This document shows, in pieces, positions 5,080 to 15,703 of a stretch of 15,851 nucleotides of DNA. Each line of letters opens with the position of its first letter. Position 1 is the first letter of the stretch. The DNA lies in the NCBI GenBank assembly GCA_003455715.1, contig DMQJ01000117.1:1353-17203 (forward strand). Direction: 5' to 3'. This DNA is from Acidimicrobiaceae bacterium. Its GTDB lineage: Bacteria > Actinomycetota > Acidimicrobiia > Acidimicrobiales > Ilumatobacteraceae. A program made the position numbers and the translations under genes. The notes beneath the pieces are model-generated. The model saw nothing but the letters and a program-made list of their open reading frames with translations, made no database searches and had not been told where the DNA came from.

Positions 5080-6585
5080 CTAGAGCGCCCCTCGATCGAG
5101 CAGTGCGAGCACCTCGACGGCTCGCTCCCGCACCGCCGGAAGGTCGGCCAGCCGTTGTGCGGCTCTCACCTGTTGCGCCATGCGCGGGTTGCGCGCGAAC
5201 AGCGTCTCGTGACGGGCGAGGAAGTCCCAGTAGAGGGTGGTGAATGGGCAGGCATCCGCGCCGGTGCGTTTGGTGCGGTCGTAGCGGCAGCCCTTGCAGT
5301 AGTCGCTCATCCGGTCGATGTACGCGCCGCCGCTGGCGTACGGCTTTGTAGCCATGCGGCCTCCGTCGGCGTGGAGCGCCATGCCCACCACGTTGGGCAC
5401 CATCACCCATTCGGCGCCGTCGATGAAGCCTGCCCACATCCAGTCGGTGAGTGCTCTCGGCTGCACGCCCGCCAGCAGGCACAGGTTGCCGATCACCATC
5501 AGCCGTTGGATGTGGTGCACCCAGCCGTGGTCGTGGAGGTTCTGCAGCGTGGTGGCGAGGCAGCGCATCTGCGTGCGGGCCGCGCCGGTGAACGCTGGCG
5601 GAAGCGGGCGATGCGCGTCGAGTTCGTTGCTGGCTGCGTAGTCCGCGCCCCACAGCCAGTAGAGCCCCCACACGTACTCGCGCCAACCGATCACCTGGCG
5701 GATGAACCCCTCAGCGCTCGCGATAGGCGCGTGACCAGCCCGGTAGGCGGCCTCCACCGCATCGCACACCTCTCGAGGTGTGAGCATGCCGAGGTTGAGG
5801 TAGTGGGCCAGCATGCTGTGGCCCACGTGCCAGCTCGCGGTGGTCATCGCGTCTTCGTGGGGGCCGAACCCGGGTAGCACGTGCTCCACGAAGTGGTGCA
5901 GGCGGTCGAGTGCGCCGGCGCGGTCGGTGGCCCACGTGCCGTCAGGGGCGGCACCCCACGTGTGGTGGCGGACGCGTTGCAGCACCTCGTGGTCGAGCGC
6001 GTCGAGCGGCGTGTACGGGGGAGTGGGCCAGTGGTTGCGCCCGTCCTTCGGTGGCGGCTTGCGGTTGTCGGCATCGAAGTTCCACTGACCACCCGCCGGC
6101 TCGTCGCCGTCCATCAGGTAGCCGAGGCGGCGCCGCTGCCAGCGATAGAAGTGCTCCATCGTCAACTGCTTGCGGCCTGCGGCCCACGCCGCGAACTCCT
6201 CGGGGTGGCAGAGAAACTGGTCGGTGCGGTGCACCGTCACGCCGAGGCGGTGCAGCATCGTGAGGCCATCGCGGCTGGCGGGTTCGGTGGCGTGTACTTC
6301 GTCGGGCTGCCACTCCAGTCGGTGCGCGGCCAGGCCAGCGGCGAGTGTGGGTGCGTGCCGTTCGTCGACCTCGAAGCCTTCGGCGCGTAGTTCGACAGCG
6401 AAGCGATGCATCGAGGTGATCACCAGGTGCGCTCGTTGCACATGCCACCGCTTCGACGTCAGCTTGGCCTCGCTGTGCACCATGAGCACCCGATGCGTGG
6501 CGGGGGTGGCTGCCCGGAGTGCGGGCAACTGGCGGTGCAACTGGTCACCCAACACCCAGACCGTTCCTCGTTGGCTGCCATGCAC
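5080..6585 (-). CDS. phrB: Prokaryotic (6-4) photolyase, iron-sulfur cryptochrome/photolyase (FeS-BCP, PhrB type)
   Basis: This 501-residue flavoprotein belongs to the deoxyribodipyrimidine photolyase-related family. It is predicted to repair (6-4) photoproducts using blue light. It starts with the Rossmann strand V-W-V-L-G-D-Q-L typical of the family. Four cysteines, C342, C430, C433 and C446, have spacings 88, 3 and 13, identical to those I recall for the 4Fe-4S ligands of Agrobacterium PhrB (C350, C438, C441, C454). H357-H358-x-x-R361 corresponds to its H-H-x-x-R repair motif with the same offset of 8. FAD and an iron-sulfur cluster are therefore expected. The frame is open to a TTG at 6675, but the extra ~30 residues are outside the conserved domain. 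I prefer the GTG at 6585, which gives near-standard length; the start is uncertain. It is the first gene of a likely two-gene unit with the YihY-like protein. Confidence 0.9.
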   Translation of the reverse strand: MHGSQRGTVWVLGDQLHRQLPALRAATPATHRVLMVHSEAKLTSKRWHVQRAHLVITSMHRFAVELRAEGFEVDERHAPTLAAGLAAHRLEWQPDEVHATEPASRDGLTMLHRLGVTVHRTDQFLCHPEEFAAWAAGRKQLTMEHFYRWQRRRLGYLMDGDEPAGGQWNFDADNRKPPPKDGRNHWPTPPYTPLDALDHEVLQRVRHHTWGAAPDGTWATDRAGALDRLHHFVEHVLPGFGPHEDAMTTASWHVGHSMLAHYLNLGMLTPREVCDAVEAAYRAGHAPIASAEGFIRQVIGWREYVWGLYWLWGADYAASNELDAHRPLPPAFTGAARTQMRCLATTLQNLHDHGWVHHIQRLMVIGNLCLLAGVQPRALTDWMWAGFIDGAEWVMVPNVVGMALHADGGRMATKPYASGGAYIDRMSDYCKGCRYDRTKRTGADACPFTTLYWDFLARHETLFARNPRMAQQVRAAQRLADLPAVRERAVEVLALLDRGAL

Positions 6586-6592
6586 GGAACGA

Positions 6593-6702
6593 GTCTGCCC
6601 GCCGCGAGCGAACCATGCCCCGCCCAGCCAGGATCGCCTGACGTCAACTGGGCCGCACGCGGCGCGGCCCTGCAATCCGGTGGACTGGCCTGGCGGGCAG
6701 AC
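6593..6702. promoter_or_regulatory. Divergent control region with an 11-bp inverted repeat
   Basis: GTCTGCCCGCC (6593-6603) and its exact reverse complement GGCGGGCAGAC (6692-6702) lie 88 bases apart. Each sits just upstream of one divergent gene: 7 bases before the photolyase GTG and 14 before the VOC ATG. Each reads GGCGGGCAGAC in the direction of its own gene. Between them are the perfect palindrome TGACGTCA (6639-6646) and a 7-bp hairpin, GGGCCGC (6650-6656) with GCGGCCC (6664-6670). The symmetry suggests a shared operator or regulator, which is an inference. Confidence 0.45.
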
Positions 6703-8837: not shown

Positions 8838-8876
8838 CCGGGCGGCTCCGTGCACGAATGGCAGGCGCATCGCGGC

Positions 8877-8882
8877 TACGGT
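8877..8882 (+). promoter_or_regulatory. Weak -10-like element before the transporter operon
   Basis: TACGGT ends 9 bases before the ATG at 8892 and resembles the TAGGGT before the VOC gene. No good -35 box is visible at 16-18 bases. It is offered only as a possible promoter for the operon. Confidence 0.22.
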
Positions 8883-8891
8883 CCCACCGCA

Positions 8892-11000
8892 ATGCGTCGC
8901 TGGGGGGCTTCACGCATGCCGAGTTCGTCGGCTGTCGCTTGGTGCGTTGTTGGCGCGCTGGTGGCGGTGCAGCTGACCTGGTTCGGCATGCCGTTCGGGT
9001 TGTGGGTCGACGCGGCCATCAAGGGTCTGCTGTCGGCGATGCTCGCCGTCGGTATGGCGCTCGTGTACCGCGCCAACCGGGTGGTCAATTTCGCCCAGGC
9101 CGACCTCGGTACGGTGCCCGCCGCATTCGCGGTGTCGTTCCTGCTCTTCTGGGGTTGGCCCTACCTGCTCGCGCTCGGCAGCGGTCTCGTGCTGGCGGTG
9201 GTGTTGGGGGCAACCGTCGAGTTGGCGTTCATCCGCCGGTTTCGCAACAGCCCGCGGCTGGTGGTCACCGTTGCCACCCTCGGCATCACCCAACTCCTGG
9301 TGGTGCTCGGCATTCTCATCCCGCGGTGGTGGGGCAAGAACCTGGTGAGTGAGCGGCCCGACCCGCCGGTGGATTGGAAGTTCACGCCCAGCTTTCAGTG
9401 GCGCTTCTGGGAGCCGTCAGGCCCCGCTCAGGTCATCCTCAGCGGCAATCACCTGATAGCGCTGTTCGTCGCGCCTGCGGCAATGGCCCTCGTGGCCTGG
9501 TTCCTCACTCGCAGCCGGTTGGGCACCGCGATCCGTGCCTCGGCGGAACGCAGCGACCGGGCAGCAATGCTTGGTATCCCGGTGGGTCGGTTGCACACCG
9601 TCGTGTGGGCGCTCGCCGCCGCTCTTGCCTTCCTGGCACTGTTCCTGCGCAGCGGCATTCAGGGTGTGCCACTCGGCATCGCTGGCTCGTTGCCCGTGTT
9701 GTTCGTAGCGCTCAGCGCGTTGGTGATCGGACGAATGGAGCACCTAGGGGTGGTGGCCGTCGCCGCGGTGGCGCTCACCCTGCTCGAGTTCGGGGTTCGC
9801 TGGCACTACAGCGACGCACCTGGCGTTGCCTATGCGCTGATGGCCGGCGCGATGTTCGTGGCCCTCCTGCTGCAGCGCGGTAGCTCGAGCCGCCGCGATT
9901 CCGACGCCACCAGCAGTTGGCGCGGCGCCGAAGAGGTGCGGCCCCTGCCCACGCATCTGGCGAATGCCGGGTGGGTGCCGACGGTGCGCTGGACGTTGTT
10001 GGCGGTGGTGGTCGGCGGTGTGGTGATGCTGCCGCGGCTGGTGGAGGTCGACACCCTCATCAAGGCCACGGCCCTCATCGCCTTTGCCATCATCGGCATG
10101 TCGCTCGTGGTGCTCACCGGTTGGTCGGGCCAGATCTCGTTCGGGCAGATGGCGCTTGCCGGCATCGGTGCAGCAGTGTCGGCAACGCTCACCACCCGCT
10201 GGCAGGTCGACCTCTCGCTCACACTGCTCGCGGGCGGTGCTGCCGGTGGTGTGGCCGCGTTGGTGGTGGGGCTGCCGGCGCTGCGCCTGCGCGGCATGTA
10301 CCTCGCCGTCACCACGTTCGCGCTGGCCCTTGCCACCGAGTCGTGGTTGCTCAACGGACGCTTCTTCGGCTGGTTCCCCCGGCCCTCCGCCAACGTGCCG
10401 CGGCTGCCGTTGTTCGGCCGCCTCGATGTCGACAACACCGATGCCTTCTACTGGTACTCGCTCGTCGTTCTGGCACTCGTCTACCTCGCCCTGCGGGGCA
10501 TCCGCCGCGCCCGCCCGGGCCGGGTGATCGTCGCCGTGAGAGAGAACGAGCGGGCAGCACAGAGCTACAGCGTTGGCGCCGTGAAGGCGAAGCTCACGGC
10601 CTTCGTCATCTCCGGGTGCGTGGCCGGGGTGGGTGGCGCCCTGTTGGTGCACGGCGCAACCGCCTTCGATGTCGCCAACTACGGCGCGGGCCCCAGCTTC
10701 GACGTGTTCACCTCGGCCGTCATCGGTGGCCTCGGGTCGCTCGGCGGCGCGCTGCTCGGAGCGCTGTACCTGCGTGGCACGCGGTGGTTCATCACCGACC
10801 AGGCGTGGCAGCTGCTGAGCACTGGCTTCGGCGTGCTGCTGGTGTTGCTGGTCCTTCCAGGTGGATTGGGCAGCCTGTGGGTGAAGCTCCGCGACACTGC
10901 GGTGCGGTTGCTCACGGGCAGCAAGGTCGACGACCTCACCCCGGATGCTGCTCCTGTCGCCACCGACCAACCAGCCCCCGAGGAGGTGTCGGCGCGATGA
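8892..11000 (+). CDS. Fused branched-chain amino acid type ABC permease (LivH-LivM)
   Basis: The polypeptide has 702 residues. About 1-328 is a LivH-type permease: A-L-V-Y-R-A-N-R-V-V-N-F-A-Q-A-D in the first conserved helix, and a coupling loop R-S-R-L-G-T-A-I-R-A-S-A-E-R-S-D-R-A-A-M-L-G-I. About 363-655 is LivM: V-L-T-G-W-S-G-Q-I-S-F-G-Q-M-A, then R-G-M-Y-L-A-V-T-T-F, then R-A-V/I-loop equivalent V-I-V-A-V-R-E-N-E-R-A-A. A hydrophilic linker (~329-362) joins them and a Pro/Ala/Glu-rich tail ends the protein. These are usually two genes; together they form the pore of a Liv/HAAT importer. The start is uncertain: GTG 8850, ATG 8892 and ATG 8916 (which has GGGGGG 8 bases upstream) are all possible. 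The stop overlaps the next start as ATGA. The substrate is unknown. Confidence 0.88.
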   Translation: MRRWGASRMPSSSAVAWCVVGALVAVQLTWFGMPFGLWVDAAIKGLLSAMLAVGMALVYRANRVVNFAQADLGTVPAAFAVSFLLFWGWPYLLALGSGLVLAVVLGATVELAFIRRFRNSPRLVVTVATLGITQLLVVLGILIPRWWGKNLVSERPDPPVDWKFTPSFQWRFWEPSGPAQVILSGNHLIALFVAPAAMALVAWFLTRSRLGTAIRASAERSDRAAMLGIPVGRLHTVVWALAAALAFLALFLRSGIQGVPLGIAGSLPVLFVALSALVIGRMEHLGVVAVAAVALTLLEFGVRWHYSDAPGVAYALMAGAMFVALLLQRGSSSRRDSDATSSWRGAEEVRPLPTHLANAGWVPTVRWTLLAVVVGGVVMLPRLVEVDTLIKATALIAFAIIGMSLVVLTGWSGQISFGQMALAGIGAAVSATLTTRWQVDLSLTLLAGGAAGGVAALVVGLPALRLRGMYLAVTTFALALATESWLLNGRFFGWFPRPSANVPRLPLFGRLDVDNTDAFYWYSLVVLALVYLALRGIRRARPGRVIVAVRENERAAQSYSVGAVKAKLTAFVISGCVAGVGGALLVHGATAFDVANYGAGPSFDVFTSAVIGGLGSLGGALLGALYLRGTRWFITDQAWQLLSTGFGVLLVLLVLPGGLGSLWVKLRDTAVRLLTGSKVDDLTPDAAPVATDQPAPEEVSAR
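10981..10988 (+). promoter_or_regulatory. Ribosome binding site of the MFS-LivF-LivG gene
   Basis: AGGAGGTG lies inside the end of the permease gene, with its last base 8 bases before the ATG at 10997. It is a near-perfect Shine-Dalgarno sequence and fixes the start of the fusion gene within an ATGA overlap. Confidence 0.75.
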
Positions 11001-13915
11001 CATCCGCTCGCACCGTTGCTGGCCACGTGGCCCACCCGATGCGCTGGCTGCGCGGCGTGTGCGGCGGCGAAAGCGCCTACCCGTTGGTGATCCTGTTCGG
11101 GCTCAATGCCGTCGACGAACTCGACCGCACTGCCTTTGGCATCCTGTTGCCCAACATCCGCGACCACTTCGGTCTCGACAACACCGGTGTGCTCAGCCTG
11201 GTGGCCCTCGCGTCGGTCGCGGCGCTGGCGTTGCAGGTGCCCATCGCCCAGTTCGCCGACCGGTCGCGGCGGGTGCCCCTCGCCATCGTCGGCGCACTGC
11301 TGTGGGCCACGTTCAGCGGCATGACCGGCCTGGCCGCCGGGGTGGTGTGGTTGGTGCTCGCCCGCAGCGGCAGTTCGCTCGGCAAGGCCGTCATCGACCC
11401 CACCCACAACTCGCTCATCGCCGACTACTACCCCATCGAGTCGCGGAGCCGGGTGTACAGCGTGCACCGCGCCGCCAACGCGGTGGGCGCCTTCATCGGG
11501 CCGATCACCGCCGGCCTCCTCGCCTACTACTTCGACTGGCGGGTGCCGTTCCTCGTGTTCGTGGTGCCCACGGTCATCTTCGCCGTGCTCGCACTGCGTC
11601 TGCGCGAGCCGGTGCGCGGCAAGTGGGAGCGCGAGGCCATGGGTGCCGCAGCCGATGTGGCGGCCACCGAGGAGACGGTGCCCAGCTTCGCCGAGAGTTG
11701 GCGCACGGTGCAGAAGGTGAAGAGCCTGCAACGCCTGTGGTGGAGCCTGCCGTTCCTGGCCACCGCGCTCATCGGGTTCGTCACCCTTGCCTCGTTGCTC
11801 TACGAGCAGCAGTTCGGTCTCGACGAACGCGAACGAGGTATCGCCGCTGCGGTGTCGGAGCCATTCCAGTTGGTGGGCATTGTGGTGGGTACCCGCTACA
11901 TCACCAAGCGGTTCATGGCCGACATGAGCGGCCTCATCCGCTTCCTCGCCCGCATCGCAGTGGGCACATCGGTGTTCTCGGTGGGCTTCGCCCTCGCCCC
12001 AAACGTGGTGGTCGCGGTGGCGCTCAACTGTGCCGTGTCGGCGTCGTTGGCCATCATCGGGCCCGGCATTCTCGTCGCCCTGTCGCTGGCCATCCCCGCC
12101 CGTGCCCGCGCCACCGGCTTCAGTGTCGCCTCGCTGTGGGTCATCCCCGGCTTGCTCATCCTGCCCATCATCGGCTGGATCTCCAGCCACGTCGGCATCC
12201 GCTGGGGCATGCTCGTGATGGTGCCGCTGTTCATCATCGGCAGCCTCGTGCTGGGGAGCGCGCAACACACCATCAACGACGACATCGCCCAGGTGTGGAA
12301 GGCGTCGGCCGCTCGCAGCGAAGCCCTCTACAACCGCCGGCACGAGCAGGCCGACCTGCTGCTGGTGCGAGGTGTCGACGCCGGCTACGGAGGTCGGCAG
12401 GTGCTGTTCGGCGTCGACATCGATGTGAAGGAAGGCGAGATCGTTGCCCTCCTCGGCACAAACGGCGCGGGCAAGAGCACGTTGCTGAAAGCCATCAGCG
12501 GGGTGGTGGAGGCCGATCGAGGTGCTGTTGTGCTCGACGGCCGCGACATCACCCATGCACCGCCCAACGAGATCGCTGCGATGGGCGTGTCGCAGATGCC
12601 GGGCGGACAGGGCGTGTTCGGTGGCCTCACCGTCGAGGAGAACCTGCGCCTCGCTGGCTGGACCCGCCGCAACGACCCAGACGGATGCGCGGTAGCCATC
12701 GAACAGGTGCTCACCGAGTTCCCGGTGCTGCGCGACCGGTTGCACACGTCGGCCGGCGACATGAGCGGTGGCCAGCAGCAGATGCTGGCGCTGGGCATGG
12801 CGTTCGTGGCGAAGCCCAGGGTGTTGCTCATCGACGAGTTGTCGCTGGGGTTGGCGCCGGTCATCGTCGGCCAGCTGCTGCCGCTGGTGCAACGGGTGGC
12901 CGCGCAGGGCACGGCGGTGATTCTGGTGGAGCAGAGCGTCAACGTGGCGCTCTCGATCGCCGAGCGCGCCTACTTCATGGAGCGCGGCACGGTGCGTTTC
13001 AGCGGTCGCACCGCCGACCTGCTCGAGCGCGGCGACCTGTTGCGTTCGGTGTTCCTCGCGGGTGCAGCCGAGTCGGCCGCCCCACCTCCGGCCCCGAGCA
13101 CCGACGATGCGGACCGGTCGCCGGTGTTGACGGTCACCGAGTTGGCTGTCGCGTTCGGCGGCAACCGAGCGGTGAACGGCGCCACGTTCGAGGTATGGCC
13201 ACGCGAGATCGTCGGCATGATCGGCCCGAACGGCGCGGGCAAGACCACCATCTTCGACCTCATCAGTGGGTTCATCCCGTCCGACGCCGGCCGAGTGGTG
13301 CTGAACGGGCGAGATGTCACTGGGCGACGCGCCCCGGTGCGCGCGGCAGCCGGTTTGGGGCGCAGCTTCCAGGACGCGCGACTGTTCCCCGACATGACCG
13401 TGGCCGAGACACTTCGGGTCGCGCAGGAACGCTGGGTCGAGAACCGCAGCGCCCTGGCGGCAGCGGTGCGATGGCCCGCTGTCTTCGACGATGAAGAGCG
13501 CGGCACGATGCGCGTCGACGAACTGCTCGAGCTGATGAACCTCGGCCCATACCGCAACTCATTCGTTCGCGAGCTCAGCACCGGCACGCGCCGCATCGTC
13601 GACCTCGCCTGCCTGGCCGCGCACCGCCCGGTGCTGGTGCTGCTCGACGAGCCCTCGAGCGGCATCGCCCAGCGGGAGGTGGAGTCGCTCGCTCCCGTCC
13701 TGCGGAGGCTGCGCGACGAGATGGGCGCCAGCCTGCTCGTGATCGAACACGACATTCCGCTCATCGCATCCATCAGCGATCGGCTCCTTGCGCTCGACCA
13801 AGGCATCGTCATCGCGGCCGGCCACCCGGCCGAGGTGCTCGACGACCCTGTTGTGCGCGAGAGCTATCTGGGTCATCATCAAGCAGCGCGCGAGCGCAGT
13901 GGCACAAGGGGGTAA
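10997..13915 (+). CDS. MFS transporter fused to two Liv-type ABC ATPases (MFS-LivF-LivG)
   Basis: This is a 972-residue triple fusion. Residues ~28-435 are a full-length MFS carrier: helix one has acidic residues D40, E41 and D43 (N-A-V-D-E-L-D-R), and motif A-like F-A-D88-R-S-R-R92 lies between helices 2 and 3. Residues ~453-690 are LivF: Walker A G487-T-N-G-A-G-K-S-T, signature M589-S-G-G-Q-Q-Q, Walker B L-L-I-D613-E614, and the family's Q in place of the switch His (V-E-Q-S). After a Pro/Ala/Asp linker, ~708-965 is LivG: Walker A G743-P-N-G-A-G-K-T-T, signature L860-S-T-G-T, Walker B L-L-D884-E885 and switch H918. Both ATPases look active and would serve the LivHM fusion encoded just upstream. 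The MFS part may be a second path, a docking subunit or a modulator; which one cannot be seen. The order LivF-LivG is the reverse of the common gene order. No stop or frame break occurs at the junctions. Confidence 0.92.
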   Translation: MTSARTVAGHVAHPMRWLRGVCGGESAYPLVILFGLNAVDELDRTAFGILLPNIRDHFGLDNTGVLSLVALASVAALALQVPIAQFADRSRRVPLAIVGALLWATFSGMTGLAAGVVWLVLARSGSSLGKAVIDPTHNSLIADYYPIESRSRVYSVHRAANAVGAFIGPITAGLLAYYFDWRVPFLVFVVPTVIFAVLALRLREPVRGKWEREAMGAAADVAATEETVPSFAESWRTVQKVKSLQRLWWSLPFLATALIGFVTLASLLYEQQFGLDERERGIAAAVSEPFQLVGIVVGTRYITKRFMADMSGLIRFLARIAVGTSVFSVGFALAPNVVVAVALNCAVSASLAIIGPGILVALSLAIPARARATGFSVASLWVIPGLLILPIIGWISSHVGIRWGMLVMVPLFIIGSLVLGSAQHTINDDIAQVWKASAARSEALYNRRHEQADLLLVRGVDAGYGGRQVLFGVDIDVKEGEIVALLGTNGAGKSTLLKAISGVVEADRGAVVLDGRDITHAPPNEIAAMGVSQMPGGQGVFGGLTVEENLRLAGWTRRNDPDGCAVAIEQVLTEFPVLRDRLHTSAGDMSGGQQQMLALGMAFVAKPRVLLIDELSLGLAPVIVGQLLPLVQRVAAQGTAVILVEQSVNVALSIAERAYFMERGTVRFSGRTADLLERGDLLRSVFLAGAAESAAPPPAPSTDDADRSPVLTVTELAVAFGGNRAVNGATFEVWPREIVGMIGPNGAGKTTIFDLISGFIPSDAGRVVLNGRDVTGRRAPVRAAAGLGRSFQDARLFPDMTVAETLRVAQERWVENRSALAAAVRWPAVFDDEERGTMRVDELLELMNLGPYRNSFVRELSTGTRRIVDLACLAAHRPVLVLLDEPSSGIAQREVESLAPVLRRLRDEMGASLLVIEHDIPLIASISDRLLALDQGIVIAAGHPAEVLDDPVVRESYLGHHQAARERSGTRG
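13906..13912 (+). promoter_or_regulatory. Ribosome binding site of the substrate-binding protein
   Basis: AAGGGGG lies at the end of the fusion gene, 6 bases before the ATG at 13919, and spans into the TAA stop region. It supports the chosen start and coupled translation. Confidence 0.65.
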
Positions 13916-13918
13916 GCC

Positions 13919-15703
13919 ATGCAACCAGCAAGTGCATCCGGTGCGGGGGCATCCGGCGGCAACCGGCAGCTGAAGCGATGGGGGCCGATCATCGGCATCG
14001 TCGCGGTGGCTGCTGTTGGCGTTGGCGTCTTCGCGGCCACGGGGGGCGACGACGAGTCGGCCGACACCACCGTCACCACCGCAGCCGCGCCCGACACCAC
14101 AGCGGGCGGTCCCGACACGACGGGCGGGGGCGACACCACCGCGCCGCCCGACACGGGTGGTACGGGTGACTGGACGTATCCGCTGTCGTACTCCGAGGCC
14201 GTGGAGTTGGGGGTGGAAGGCGACATCGACTGGGGCGATCGGTGCGACACCTCCACCGGCCGAGTGGCGGTGCCCGACTACTTCGCGCAGGAGTGCTTCG
14301 CCCCGTTCGAGGGCGACAACGGCGGCGCCACCGCGCAGGGGGTGACCGCCGACGAGATCACCCTCGTCTACTACGAAGGCCTGCAGGGCGACCCAATCAT
14401 CTCCTACATCACCGACGCCATCTCGGTCGACGACACCAACGCCCAGCAGTTCGAAACGATGCAGGGCTTGGTGGAGTACTACGAGGCCTACTACGAGCTG
14501 TACGGCCGGAAGATCAACCTCGTCACCTTCGAGGGCACCGGTCTGGCCAATGACGACGTGGCTGCACGCGCCGACGCGGCAGCCATCGCCGAGCAGTACC
14601 AGCCGTTCGCGGTGCTCGGTGGGCCTGCCCTCACCAACGCGTTCGCCGACGAACTCGCCGCTCGCGAGATTCTGTGCATCGGCTGCACGCCCGGCCAGCC
14701 GGCCGACTTCTACACCGAACGCGACCCGTACGTGTGGGGGCTCGACGGCAGCGCCATTCAGAAGCAAACGCACGTCATCGAGTTCATCGAGAAGCAGCTG
14801 GTGGGCAAGAACGCCGAGCACGGTGGCGATGCGGTGAAGGATCTGCCTCGCACCTTCGGCCTCGTGTACCTCGACAGCAGCGACGCCTCCGGTGAGTTGG
14901 CCGATCGGTTGGCTGGCGAGATGGAACGCATCGGCGCCCCCTTTGCCGAGGTGGTGGCCTACGCGCTCGACCCGGCCACCATCCAGGCCCAGGCCACGCA
15001 GGTGATCACCAAGATGAAGGCCGCCGGTGTCACCACGGTGGTGTTCAGTGGCGACCCGGTGGCGCCGCGCGACTTCACCAAGGAAGCGACCGCACAGGAG
15101 TACTTCCCCGAGTGGGTCATCGCCGCCAGCACCCTGGTGGATGTCACCGCCTTCGCTCGCACCTACGACCAGCAGCAATGGCAGCACGCGTTCGGGGTCA
15201 CCTCGTTGGCCGCTCGCAGCGACCCGACTGCCCGCGGCGCCTACGCGATCTACGAGTGGTTCCATGGCGCCCCGCCGCCCGCCGACGACACCATCGGCAC
15301 CATCGCCCCCAACCCGGCGCTGTTCTTCGCGGTGATGCAGGGCGTTGGCCCCAACCTGACGGCCGAGGGTTTCCGTGATGCGTTGTTCGCTTCGCCAGGC
15401 ACCGTGCCCGCAGTGAGTCAGCCCTACCTCACCTACGGCGACAAGGGCTACTGGGGCGACGACCTCGACTACTTCGGTGTCGACGACGCCACGGTGCTGT
15501 GGTGGGACCCCAACGCCACCGGCCCCGACGAGATCCGCAAGGAAGGCACGGGCATGTACCAGTACGTCGACGGTGGCGCCCGCTACCTCCCCGGCGAGTG
15601 GCCGACGGAGGAGAAGCTGTTCGACCCCGACGGTGCGGTGAGCATCTACTTCGAAGCGCCACCTGGTGAGGAGCCAAAGGACTACCCGAGTCCGGCGGGC
15701 TGA
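13919..15703 (+). CDS. Membrane-anchored LivK-like ABC substrate-binding protein
   Basis: The protein has 594 residues and is predicted to capture the ligand for the Liv-type importer encoded upstream. Residues 1-20 are short and basic at the end (R-Q-L-K-R). Residues 21-40 are a single hydrophobic helix (W-G-P-I-I-G-I-V-A-V) with no lipobox Cys, so the protein is probably held by an uncleaved membrane anchor. Residues ~42-84 are a Thr/Gly/Asp-rich linker. From ~128 onward the type I periplasmic-binding fold is visible: I-T-L-V-Y-Y-E-G at the first strand, I-N-L-V-T-F-E-G-T-G, A-V-L-G-G-P-A-L-T-N-A-F, C-I-G-C, T-F-G-L-V-Y-L-D-S-S-D, and V-T-T-V-V-F-S-G-D-P. It is longer than typical LivK (~370 residues). 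The ligand cannot be inferred. It starts 3 bases after the fusion gene's stop. Confidence 0.88.
   Translation: MQPASASGAGASGGNRQLKRWGPIIGIVAVAAVGVGVFAATGGDDESADTTVTTAAAPDTTAGGPDTTGGGDTTAPPDTGGTGDWTYPLSYSEAVELGVEGDIDWGDRCDTSTGRVAVPDYFAQECFAPFEGDNGGATAQGVTADEITLVYYEGLQGDPIISYITDAISVDDTNAQQFETMQGLVEYYEAYYELYGRKINLVTFEGTGLANDDVAARADAAAIAEQYQPFAVLGGPALTNAFADELAAREILCIGCTPGQPADFYTERDPYVWGLDGSAIQKQTHVIEFIEKQLVGKNAEHGGDAVKDLPRTFGLVYLDSSDASGELADRLAGEMERIGAPFAEVVAYALDPATIQAQATQVITKMKAAGVTTVVFSGDPVAPRDFTKEATAQEYFPEWVIAASTLVDVTAFARTYDQQQWQHAFGVTSLAARSDPTARGAYAIYEWFHGAPPPADDTIGTIAPNPALFFAVMQGVGPNLTAEGFRDALFASPGTVPAVSQPYLTYGDKGYWGDDLDYFGVDDATVLWWDPNATGPDEIRKEGTGMYQYVDGGARYLPGEWPTEEKLFDPDGAVSIYFEAPPGEEPKDYPSPAG

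Follow-up and report, generated by a model that had tools for sequence, protein, structure and literature searches.

An MFS domain fused to both ATPases of a HAAT-type ABC importer in Actinomycetota: a possible built-in carrier for the same ligand

What is an MFS carrier doing in the same polypeptide as both ATPases of a Liv-type ABC importer? MFS and ABC transporters are usually regarded as unconnected groups, each with its own source of energy, and here the two meet in one conserved chain that is found in many Actinomycetota. The question is raised by a stretch of 15,851 nt from an Acidimicrobiaceae bacterium (Ilumatobacteraceae; GCA_003455715.1, contig DMQJ01000117.1, positions 1,353-17,203, forward strand), called the window below; coordinates are window positions, position 1 being the first letter of the stretch. 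The features that matter are the following:

8850..11000, + strand: LivH-LivM fused permease, 716 aa from the predicted start (BPD_transp_2 in two stretches, E 3.2e-49, Pfam)
10997..13915, + strand: MFS-LivF-LivG fusion, 972 aa (one frame; Pfam domains; AlphaFold2 model)
11078..12268, + strand: MFS domain, residues 28-424, spinster-like, 12 membrane helices by our count (MFS_1, Pfam; profile match to 6e8j)
11384..11386, + strand: Lys130, where spinsters have the TM4 proton-switch Glu (profile alignment to E129 of 6e8j)
12272..12340, + strand: predicted junction helix from TM12 to LivF, residues 426-448, of fixed length (AlphaFold2 model; spacing in 63 rows)
12353..13066, + strand: LivF ATPase domain, residues 453-690 (NCBIfam UrtE model; conserved ABC motifs)
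13118..13879, + strand: LivG ATPase domain with a BCA_ABC_TP_C tail, residues 708-961 (Pfam; conserved ABC motifs)
13919..15703, + strand: substrate-binding protein (SBP), 594 aa, with an N-terminal hydrophobic helix (HAAT fold of the model; downstream conservation)

The operon encodes a complete HAAT-type ABC importer, comprising the LivHM permease, both ATPases and the SBP, in the order permease, ATPases with MFS, binding protein. The start of the fusion (ATG) and the stop of the LivH-LivM ORF share four bases, and three bases separate the fusion ORF from the SBP ORF. Because LivHM and the SBP share the operon, the ATPases have ordinary permeases and the MFS domain is an added module; with all of these parts in place, ATP hydrolysis can therefore drive LivHM in the ordinary way. 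On the features tested the system belongs to the HAAT importers, which we take to be TC 3.A.1.4, and ATP-driven uptake of amino acids or related ligands is predicted. Like LivFGHMJ and UrtABCDE, it has a LivF/UrtE-like and a LivG-like ATPase with complete ABC motifs and the BCA_ABC_TP_C tail, two BPD_transp_2 permease domains of the LivH/LivM type and a type I periplasmic binding protein, the last recognised by fold only. Unlike these importers, its permeases are fused to each other, as are its ATPases, MFS stands ahead of LivF, the LivF Q-loop contains a Gly and the SBP lacks a Pfam model above cut-off. Scans of the DNA for promoters, terminators and Rfam families gave nothing above chance. 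A role in defence was also considered and rejected, the PADLOC matches being confined to the ATPase part.

The initial annotation had read, from the letters alone, one frame coding for a 12-helix-sized MFS domain followed by two ATPases with their ABC motifs, and this reading was borne out. Pfam places MFS_1 at residues 34-380 of the 972 (E 9.7e-39), ABC_tran in two stretches (E 1.3e-54) and BCA_ABC_TP_C at 938-961, and the helices of the AlphaFold2 model (mean pLDDT 83.5, pTM 0.68) fit 12 membrane spans by our count. Among NCBIfam models, UrtE matches residues 457-675 above its cut-off and LivF residues 454-689 below its own; in the LivG part the LivG (708-960) and UrtD models fall below their cut-offs and LptB lies above. 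Conservation was followed in an alignment of 63 rows, namely the window and 62 of the 68 complete fusions described below (six were left out). The LivF motifs (Walker A GTNGAGKST, signature SGGQQQ, Walker B LLIDEL) are conserved in all 63 fusions, and the core residues of the LivG motifs (GPNGAGKTT, LSTGTRR, LLLDEP, EHD) are invariant or nearly so. LivF Gln646, at the place of the H-loop His of many ABC ATPases, is Gln in 63/63. The arrangement is not that of an ABC exporter, in which an ABC membrane domain precedes the NBD: here that position is taken by MFS_1. Two NBDs in tandem within one chain also occur in M. tuberculosis DppD and in OppD, both among the best Foldseek matches; these belong to a different importer family and have no MFS domain.

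Residue 536 in the LivF Q-loop is Gly in 62 of the 63 rows, with one X (PGG versus PQG/PEG in LivF/UrtE). As a mark of coupling to MFS this Gly was rejected: it occurs throughout the clan examined, with or without MFS, including the relatives that have the whole importer core in one chain. A separate LivF (L194) and a LivF from the window's own genome (L003) retain PEG and PQG, respectively.

The SBP (13919-15703) matched no Pfam family above cut-off. Its model (pLDDT 87) matches HAAT binding proteins at 10-16% identity, the best being 4n03, titled fatty-acid binding protein, followed by the Leu/Ile/Val-binding 1z15, UrtA (7s6e) and aromatic-acid binders. Two cysteines, C109 and C126, are invariant in 53 rows of the SBP family.

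How far does the arrangement extend beyond the window? A contig scan with the MFS-domain alignment as query, covering 84,980 species with one genome apiece, gave 191 relatives, and the best 80 of these, hence near ones, were retained. All 80 contain the MFS domain. We looked for a frameshift or assembly join in independent genomes, the weak point that the initial annotation had itself named: MFS, LivF and LivG lie in one stop-closed frame in 68 of the 80 loci (three of these frames start at a contig edge), and in the remaining 12 the fusion frame runs off the contig end. Among the carriers are Ilumatobacter nonamiensis YM16-303 (L131), which is an isolate, and IMCC26256 (L148), whose genome is complete. 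The check for a LivHM neighbour, likewise proposed at that stage, found a LivH/LivM homologue upstream in 77 of these 80 loci (LivH and LivM in one frame in 73, LivM only in three, broken frames in L087), the other three having at most about 184 bases upstream of the fusion. An SBP homologue lies downstream in 66 of the 80, and the other 14 loci end within 367 bases; every missing LivH/LivM or SBP call corresponds to missing sequence. The notion of ATPases without a permease was rejected, since LivH/LivM is present wherever the sequence allows. Loci L112 and L114, under the record title Bifidobacterium breve, and L129, under Acidobacteria, also carry the operon; their bins are probably actinobacterial and mislabelled.

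The related sequences that had been anticipated in Actinomycetota are indeed widespread: 2607 proteins in the protein database match the MFS part. Among the 120 matches listed, the commonest of the names given by the source was 'MFS transporter', and two were named 'ABC-type branched-subunit amino acid transport system ATPase component/MFS family permease'. Behind automatic names such as 'MFS transporter' or 'branched-chain amino acid transport system ATP-binding protein' the arrangement goes unseen. A published description of an MFS-ABC fusion was not found in the open-access literature searched, including passages of PMC3924187 and PMC1810536. A survey of the phylum, in which scoring was limited to the top four candidates of each genome, gave matches at 1e-95 in 13 of 197 genomes, including families of other classes. 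Closer to the window, 33 of 61 genomes (its own and 60 relatives) give a match when the cut is set at E 1e-60, which LivF-LivG proteins without MFS can pass as well. The match is present in 8 of 14 other genomes of the window's genus and absent from five of these 14 that are at least 94% complete; because of this patchiness we regard the fusion as an accessory trait.

By profile, the solved chain nearest to the MFS domain is 6e8j, and DgoT and human SPNS1/2 come after it; 6e8j came first in both profile searches, and the border with the DgoT group is soft because DgoT ranked second in one. We infer from residue numbering that 6e8j is HnSpns, since its letters at 41, 42, 122, 129 and 142 match the HnSpns numbering in PMC9440201. 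According to that paper, E129 is the intracellular proton switch of HnSpns, D41 a second site and D87-R91-D142 the motif A relay; in MsSpns, D38 and E126 play roles like those of D41 and E129 (PMC13192786). The fusion retains what spinsters (HnSpns, SPNS1, SPNS2) and DgoT have in common: the motif A Asp-Arg-Asp relay (D88 in 63 of 63 rows, R92 in 63, D143 in 62 with one X), the TM1 Asp-Arg (D43 in 63, R44 in 62) and the TM4 Arg (R123 in 63). It departs from them at the TM4 switch, where the E129-equivalent place (Lys130 in the window) is Lys in 56 rows, Arg in five and Ala in two, hence basic in 61/63; TM1 has gained two further acids, D40 and E41, and the C terminus is fused to an ABC ATPase pair. 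The TM4 charge swap is not universal: in a wider set of 22 rows only 12 have a basic residue there, one has Asp, and Glu does not occur. The extracellular TM2 Asp of the spinster TM2 Asp-TM7 Arg pair aligns with Asn62, with Asp61 adjacent, and both residues vary in the family. The domain thus has the 12-helix fold and motif A relay of spinsters, and spinsters are its closest solved relatives, but the TM4 Glu is missing; because this hallmark fails, we do not file it as a spinster (TC 2.A.1.49). To judge by its residues, the domain looks capable of alternating access and incapable of working through the usual proton switch.

The junction between MFS and LivF is uniform in length. Between D429, just after TM12, and the Walker A Lys of LivF there are 63 residues in 63/63 proteins with the window's layout (T1, below), with 63-65 in another 20 rows (13 T1 and seven T2, some of the T1 rows coming from genomes already counted). 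Junction residues V433, A439 and R447 are invariant in the 63 rows, and residues 426-448 are modelled as one helix, the blocks that cover it having pLDDT values of 82-92. Two linkers served as controls: the LivF-LivG linker spans 48-126 residues in the same 63 proteins, and the LivH-LivM linker 96-105 (sd 1.4, 92 rows). The constancy of the junction is suggestive rather than unique, because the LivH-LivM linker is fairly constant too.

Which partner does the MFS domain follow in evolution? Co-divergence was assessed in the 78 loci with all six components, dereplicated by similarity to 54, as the correlation of pairwise distances between two components with the other four held fixed. The partial r for MFS and SBP is 0.77 (reached in 0/300 permutations), a value that denotes co-divergence and not contact, because the permutation null ignores shared ancestry. 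LivF-LivG (0.58) and LivH-LivM (0.56) both lie below it, and MFS-LivF is at 0.12 (47/300 permutations), though the two are one chain. Seven variants of the test, among them ranks, quadratic terms, the nearer 43 loci and 41 loci from the genome scan, left MFS-SBP at 0.60-0.77 (0/200 each), the largest of the 15 pairs in each. Over the same variants MFS-LivF was 0.07-0.18, exceeding nearly all permutations in two (0 and 2 of 200), and MFS-LivM also reached 0.41-0.48 in the nearer sets. Joint replacement of MFS and SBP by recombination is unlikely, because LivF and LivG lie between them. The co-divergence suggests shared substrate recognition and lends support to the idea, already voiced in the initial annotation, that both transport units serve one substrate. 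Median dN/dS is 0.15 for MFS, 0.10 for LivF, 0.13 for LivG, 0.22 for SBP, 0.12 for LivH and 0.16 for LivM (39 of the 40 closest pairs, non-independent, many sharing members); with a value of 0.15, MFS is under purifying selection.

The reading that we prefer, with a probability of roughly 0.4, is that of a HAAT-type ABC importer whose ATPase chain may carry a built-in MFS carrier for the same ligand, probably not proton-driven. The MFS domain would bind the same ligand as the SBP, or one closely derived from it, which is probably an organic anion; with motif A intact, it would alternate access without being proton-driven via the usual TM4 Glu, and it might act as a uniporter or exchanger beside the pump. 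The passage from TM12 through a fixed-length helix into LivF would give one MFS per ATPase pair in a set geometry. Because the helix would set this geometry, mutual influence between the state of the ATPases and the MFS gate is possible: the passive path could, for example, be shut while the pump works, or excess ligand could be released when the pump stops. Of the hybrid transporter first suggested for this locus, the true MFS-ATPase chain beside LivHM stands, with the correction that the ATPases have their own permease and SBP in the operon and that MFS is an accessory that comes and goes. An MFS-derived pure scaffold, another early suggestion, fits poorly with the conservation of motif A and the covariation with the SBP. 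With this system two questions could be put to the test: can the activity of an MFS carrier be governed by an ATPase, and can an ABC importer employ another porter for the substrate that it takes up itself?

The same fixed junction with LivF, loss of the proton switch and covariation with the SBP could also describe a transceptor, that is, a non-transporting MFS domain that senses the ligand and tunes the ATPases through the junction helix, by trans-inhibition or activation. MFS receptors are known, and the NCBIfam model 'glucose-6-phosphate receptor UhpC' matches 2/9 MFS domains weakly. A precedent for MFS joined to a cytoplasmic ATP-using module is the sensor kinase-MFS fusion family 2.A.1.34, which PMC3924187 lists; there the module is a kinase, here it is a pair of ABC ATPases. 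However, a pure sensor would not need motif A, which is kept throughout the 63 rows, and the central MFS loop has 40 residues in 63/63, which leaves no room for a regulatory insertion. We consider sensing without transport rather unlikely.

The carrier-beside-the-pump reading also has to accommodate relatives in which the parts are arranged differently. Four layouts were found. T1 is LivHM followed by MFS-LivF-LivG, mostly with an SBP (30 ORFs in 29 loci); the permease is a LivH+LivM frame in 28 of the 29 (LivM only in L067), and an SBP homologue lies within 4.5 kb in 24, none being recognised within that distance in the five most divergent T1 loci (L063-L067). T2 has MFS-LivF beside LivH-LivM-LivG in seven loci, one of them (L072) cut by a contig end and another (L038) on a 5.7 Mb replicon of Embleya; Peripla_BP_6 binding proteins adjoin two T2 loci (L038, L071), and L199 is a further T2 with a separate LivG. 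T3 is MFS-less, with LivHM, LivF-LivG and SBP (L075, L077, L078, L204), and T4 is LivH-LivM-LivF-LivG in one open frame (L076, L189, L203). T1 and T2 alike place MFS ahead of LivF, and wherever both ATPases can be assigned, each pair of them has a single MFS. In the LivF tree, from which nine near-duplicates and two long-branch rows (L198, L068) were left out, the MFS-less L077 is sister to the MFS-bearing L062 (support 100/95). In the MFS tree, made with a quick method with SH-aLRT only and without six near-duplicates, free MFS rows (L074, L190, L191) fall inside the T1 clan; the row L195, labelled free, is cut by a contig end. The trees sampled 13 of the 80 near loci, and short domains, L192 and L201 among them, were dropped. 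From the L077/L062 sisterhood and the free MFS rows in the T1 clan it follows that there was more than one loss, gain or separation of MFS, and the existence of the MFS-less T3 relatives makes it a dispensable module.

Some of these relatives are noteworthy in themselves. The T4 frames (L189:13283-17095, L076:5987-10069, L203:8928-12698) are 1257-1361 aa from stop to stop, and each joins the core of an ABC importer into one polypeptide; beside the T4 gene of L189 stands a separate MFS gene that belongs to the T1 clan. The window's genome also has, on contig C108, a T2-like system (L201) that is cut by the contig start and shows an apparent LivF frame break. MFS frames of a separate clade (L196, L197, L200) measure 638-751 aa from stop to stop, and a long part of each was unmatched by the queries used.

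Repeated loss, gain or freeing of MFS is what might be expected of two independent transporters, for instance an importer and a by-product exporter, tethered merely for equal dosage, and MFS and the NBDs do evolve at different rates. CamABCD and CamM of Rhodococcus jostii RHA1 are separately named genes. They form a pair of an ABC and an MFS importer, in which CamABCD and CamM take up different cholate metabolites in the service of one catabolic pathway (PMC8399759). Unlike the chain described here, those two are non-fused and handle distinct metabolites. Against mere tethering, MFS-SBP is the strongest covariation of the 15 pairs, and the junction is fixed; we find it quite improbable.

A bolder version of the hybrid idea would have the LivF-LivG cycle gate or power the spinster-like carrier, now devoid of its proton switch, through the junction helix, the same ATPases also serving LivHM. 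If true, this ATP-controlled MFS would mean that a single motor serves two membrane machines of unrelated kinds, both working on one substrate, a prospect that we hold to be a long shot. As a complete account of the fusion, an MFS domain powered or gated by the ATPases, besides or in alternation with LivHM, would be favoured by the fixed-length helical junction at the LivF N terminus in T1 and T2 and by the change of the proton switch to Lys/Arg. The structural model adds a weak hint: in a Foldseek search with the whole fusion, ATPase pairs dominate the matches, and the modelled pair seems nearer to the ATP-bound M. tuberculosis DppD chain 8wdb_D (the best match, at a modest target TM of 0.66) than to the substrate-bound 8wda_D (0.48). 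However, every sufficiently sequenced locus of the best 80 of 191 has a dedicated LivHM, close MFS-less relatives retain the same ATPases, and MFS-LivF co-divergence is small (0.07-0.18). We also know of no MFS that is ATP-driven, and judge this account very unlikely. Finally, although the window lies in a genome of 552 contigs that is 78.5% complete, an assembly join or frameshift that fused two genes is rejected almost outright, as the frame is intact in 68 of the 80 loci, contig ends account for the other 12, and the isolate and the complete genome agree.

Could the gene neighbourhood name the ligand of the importer and its candidate same-ligand carrier? When the neighbouring ORFs of 122 loci were clustered, the largest clusters were, on our reading, antisense shadows, and the commonest non-transporter cluster scanned, a uracil-DNA-glycosylase-like gene, occurred in at most 37 of the 122 loci. 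Apart from the binding proteins in two T2 loci, the 30 neighbour ORFs scanned had scattered functions (ROK, 2OG oxygenase, sulfatase, UvrD, PhyH, acyl-CoA dehydrogenase, enoyl-CoA hydratase, wax synthase, peptidases, transposase and others), and no substrate could be inferred from these 122 clustered loci and 30 ORFs. Two further genes of the window lie on the minus strand. The product of the ORF at 343-2769 has 808 aa; its peptidoglycan-binding and M15-type peptidase domains precede long repeats with motifs such as VDVQGFF. The ORF at 5080-6675 encodes a deoxyribodipyrimidine photo-lyase-related protein (DPRP) and is flanked by BrkB-type and glyoxalase-like ORFs.
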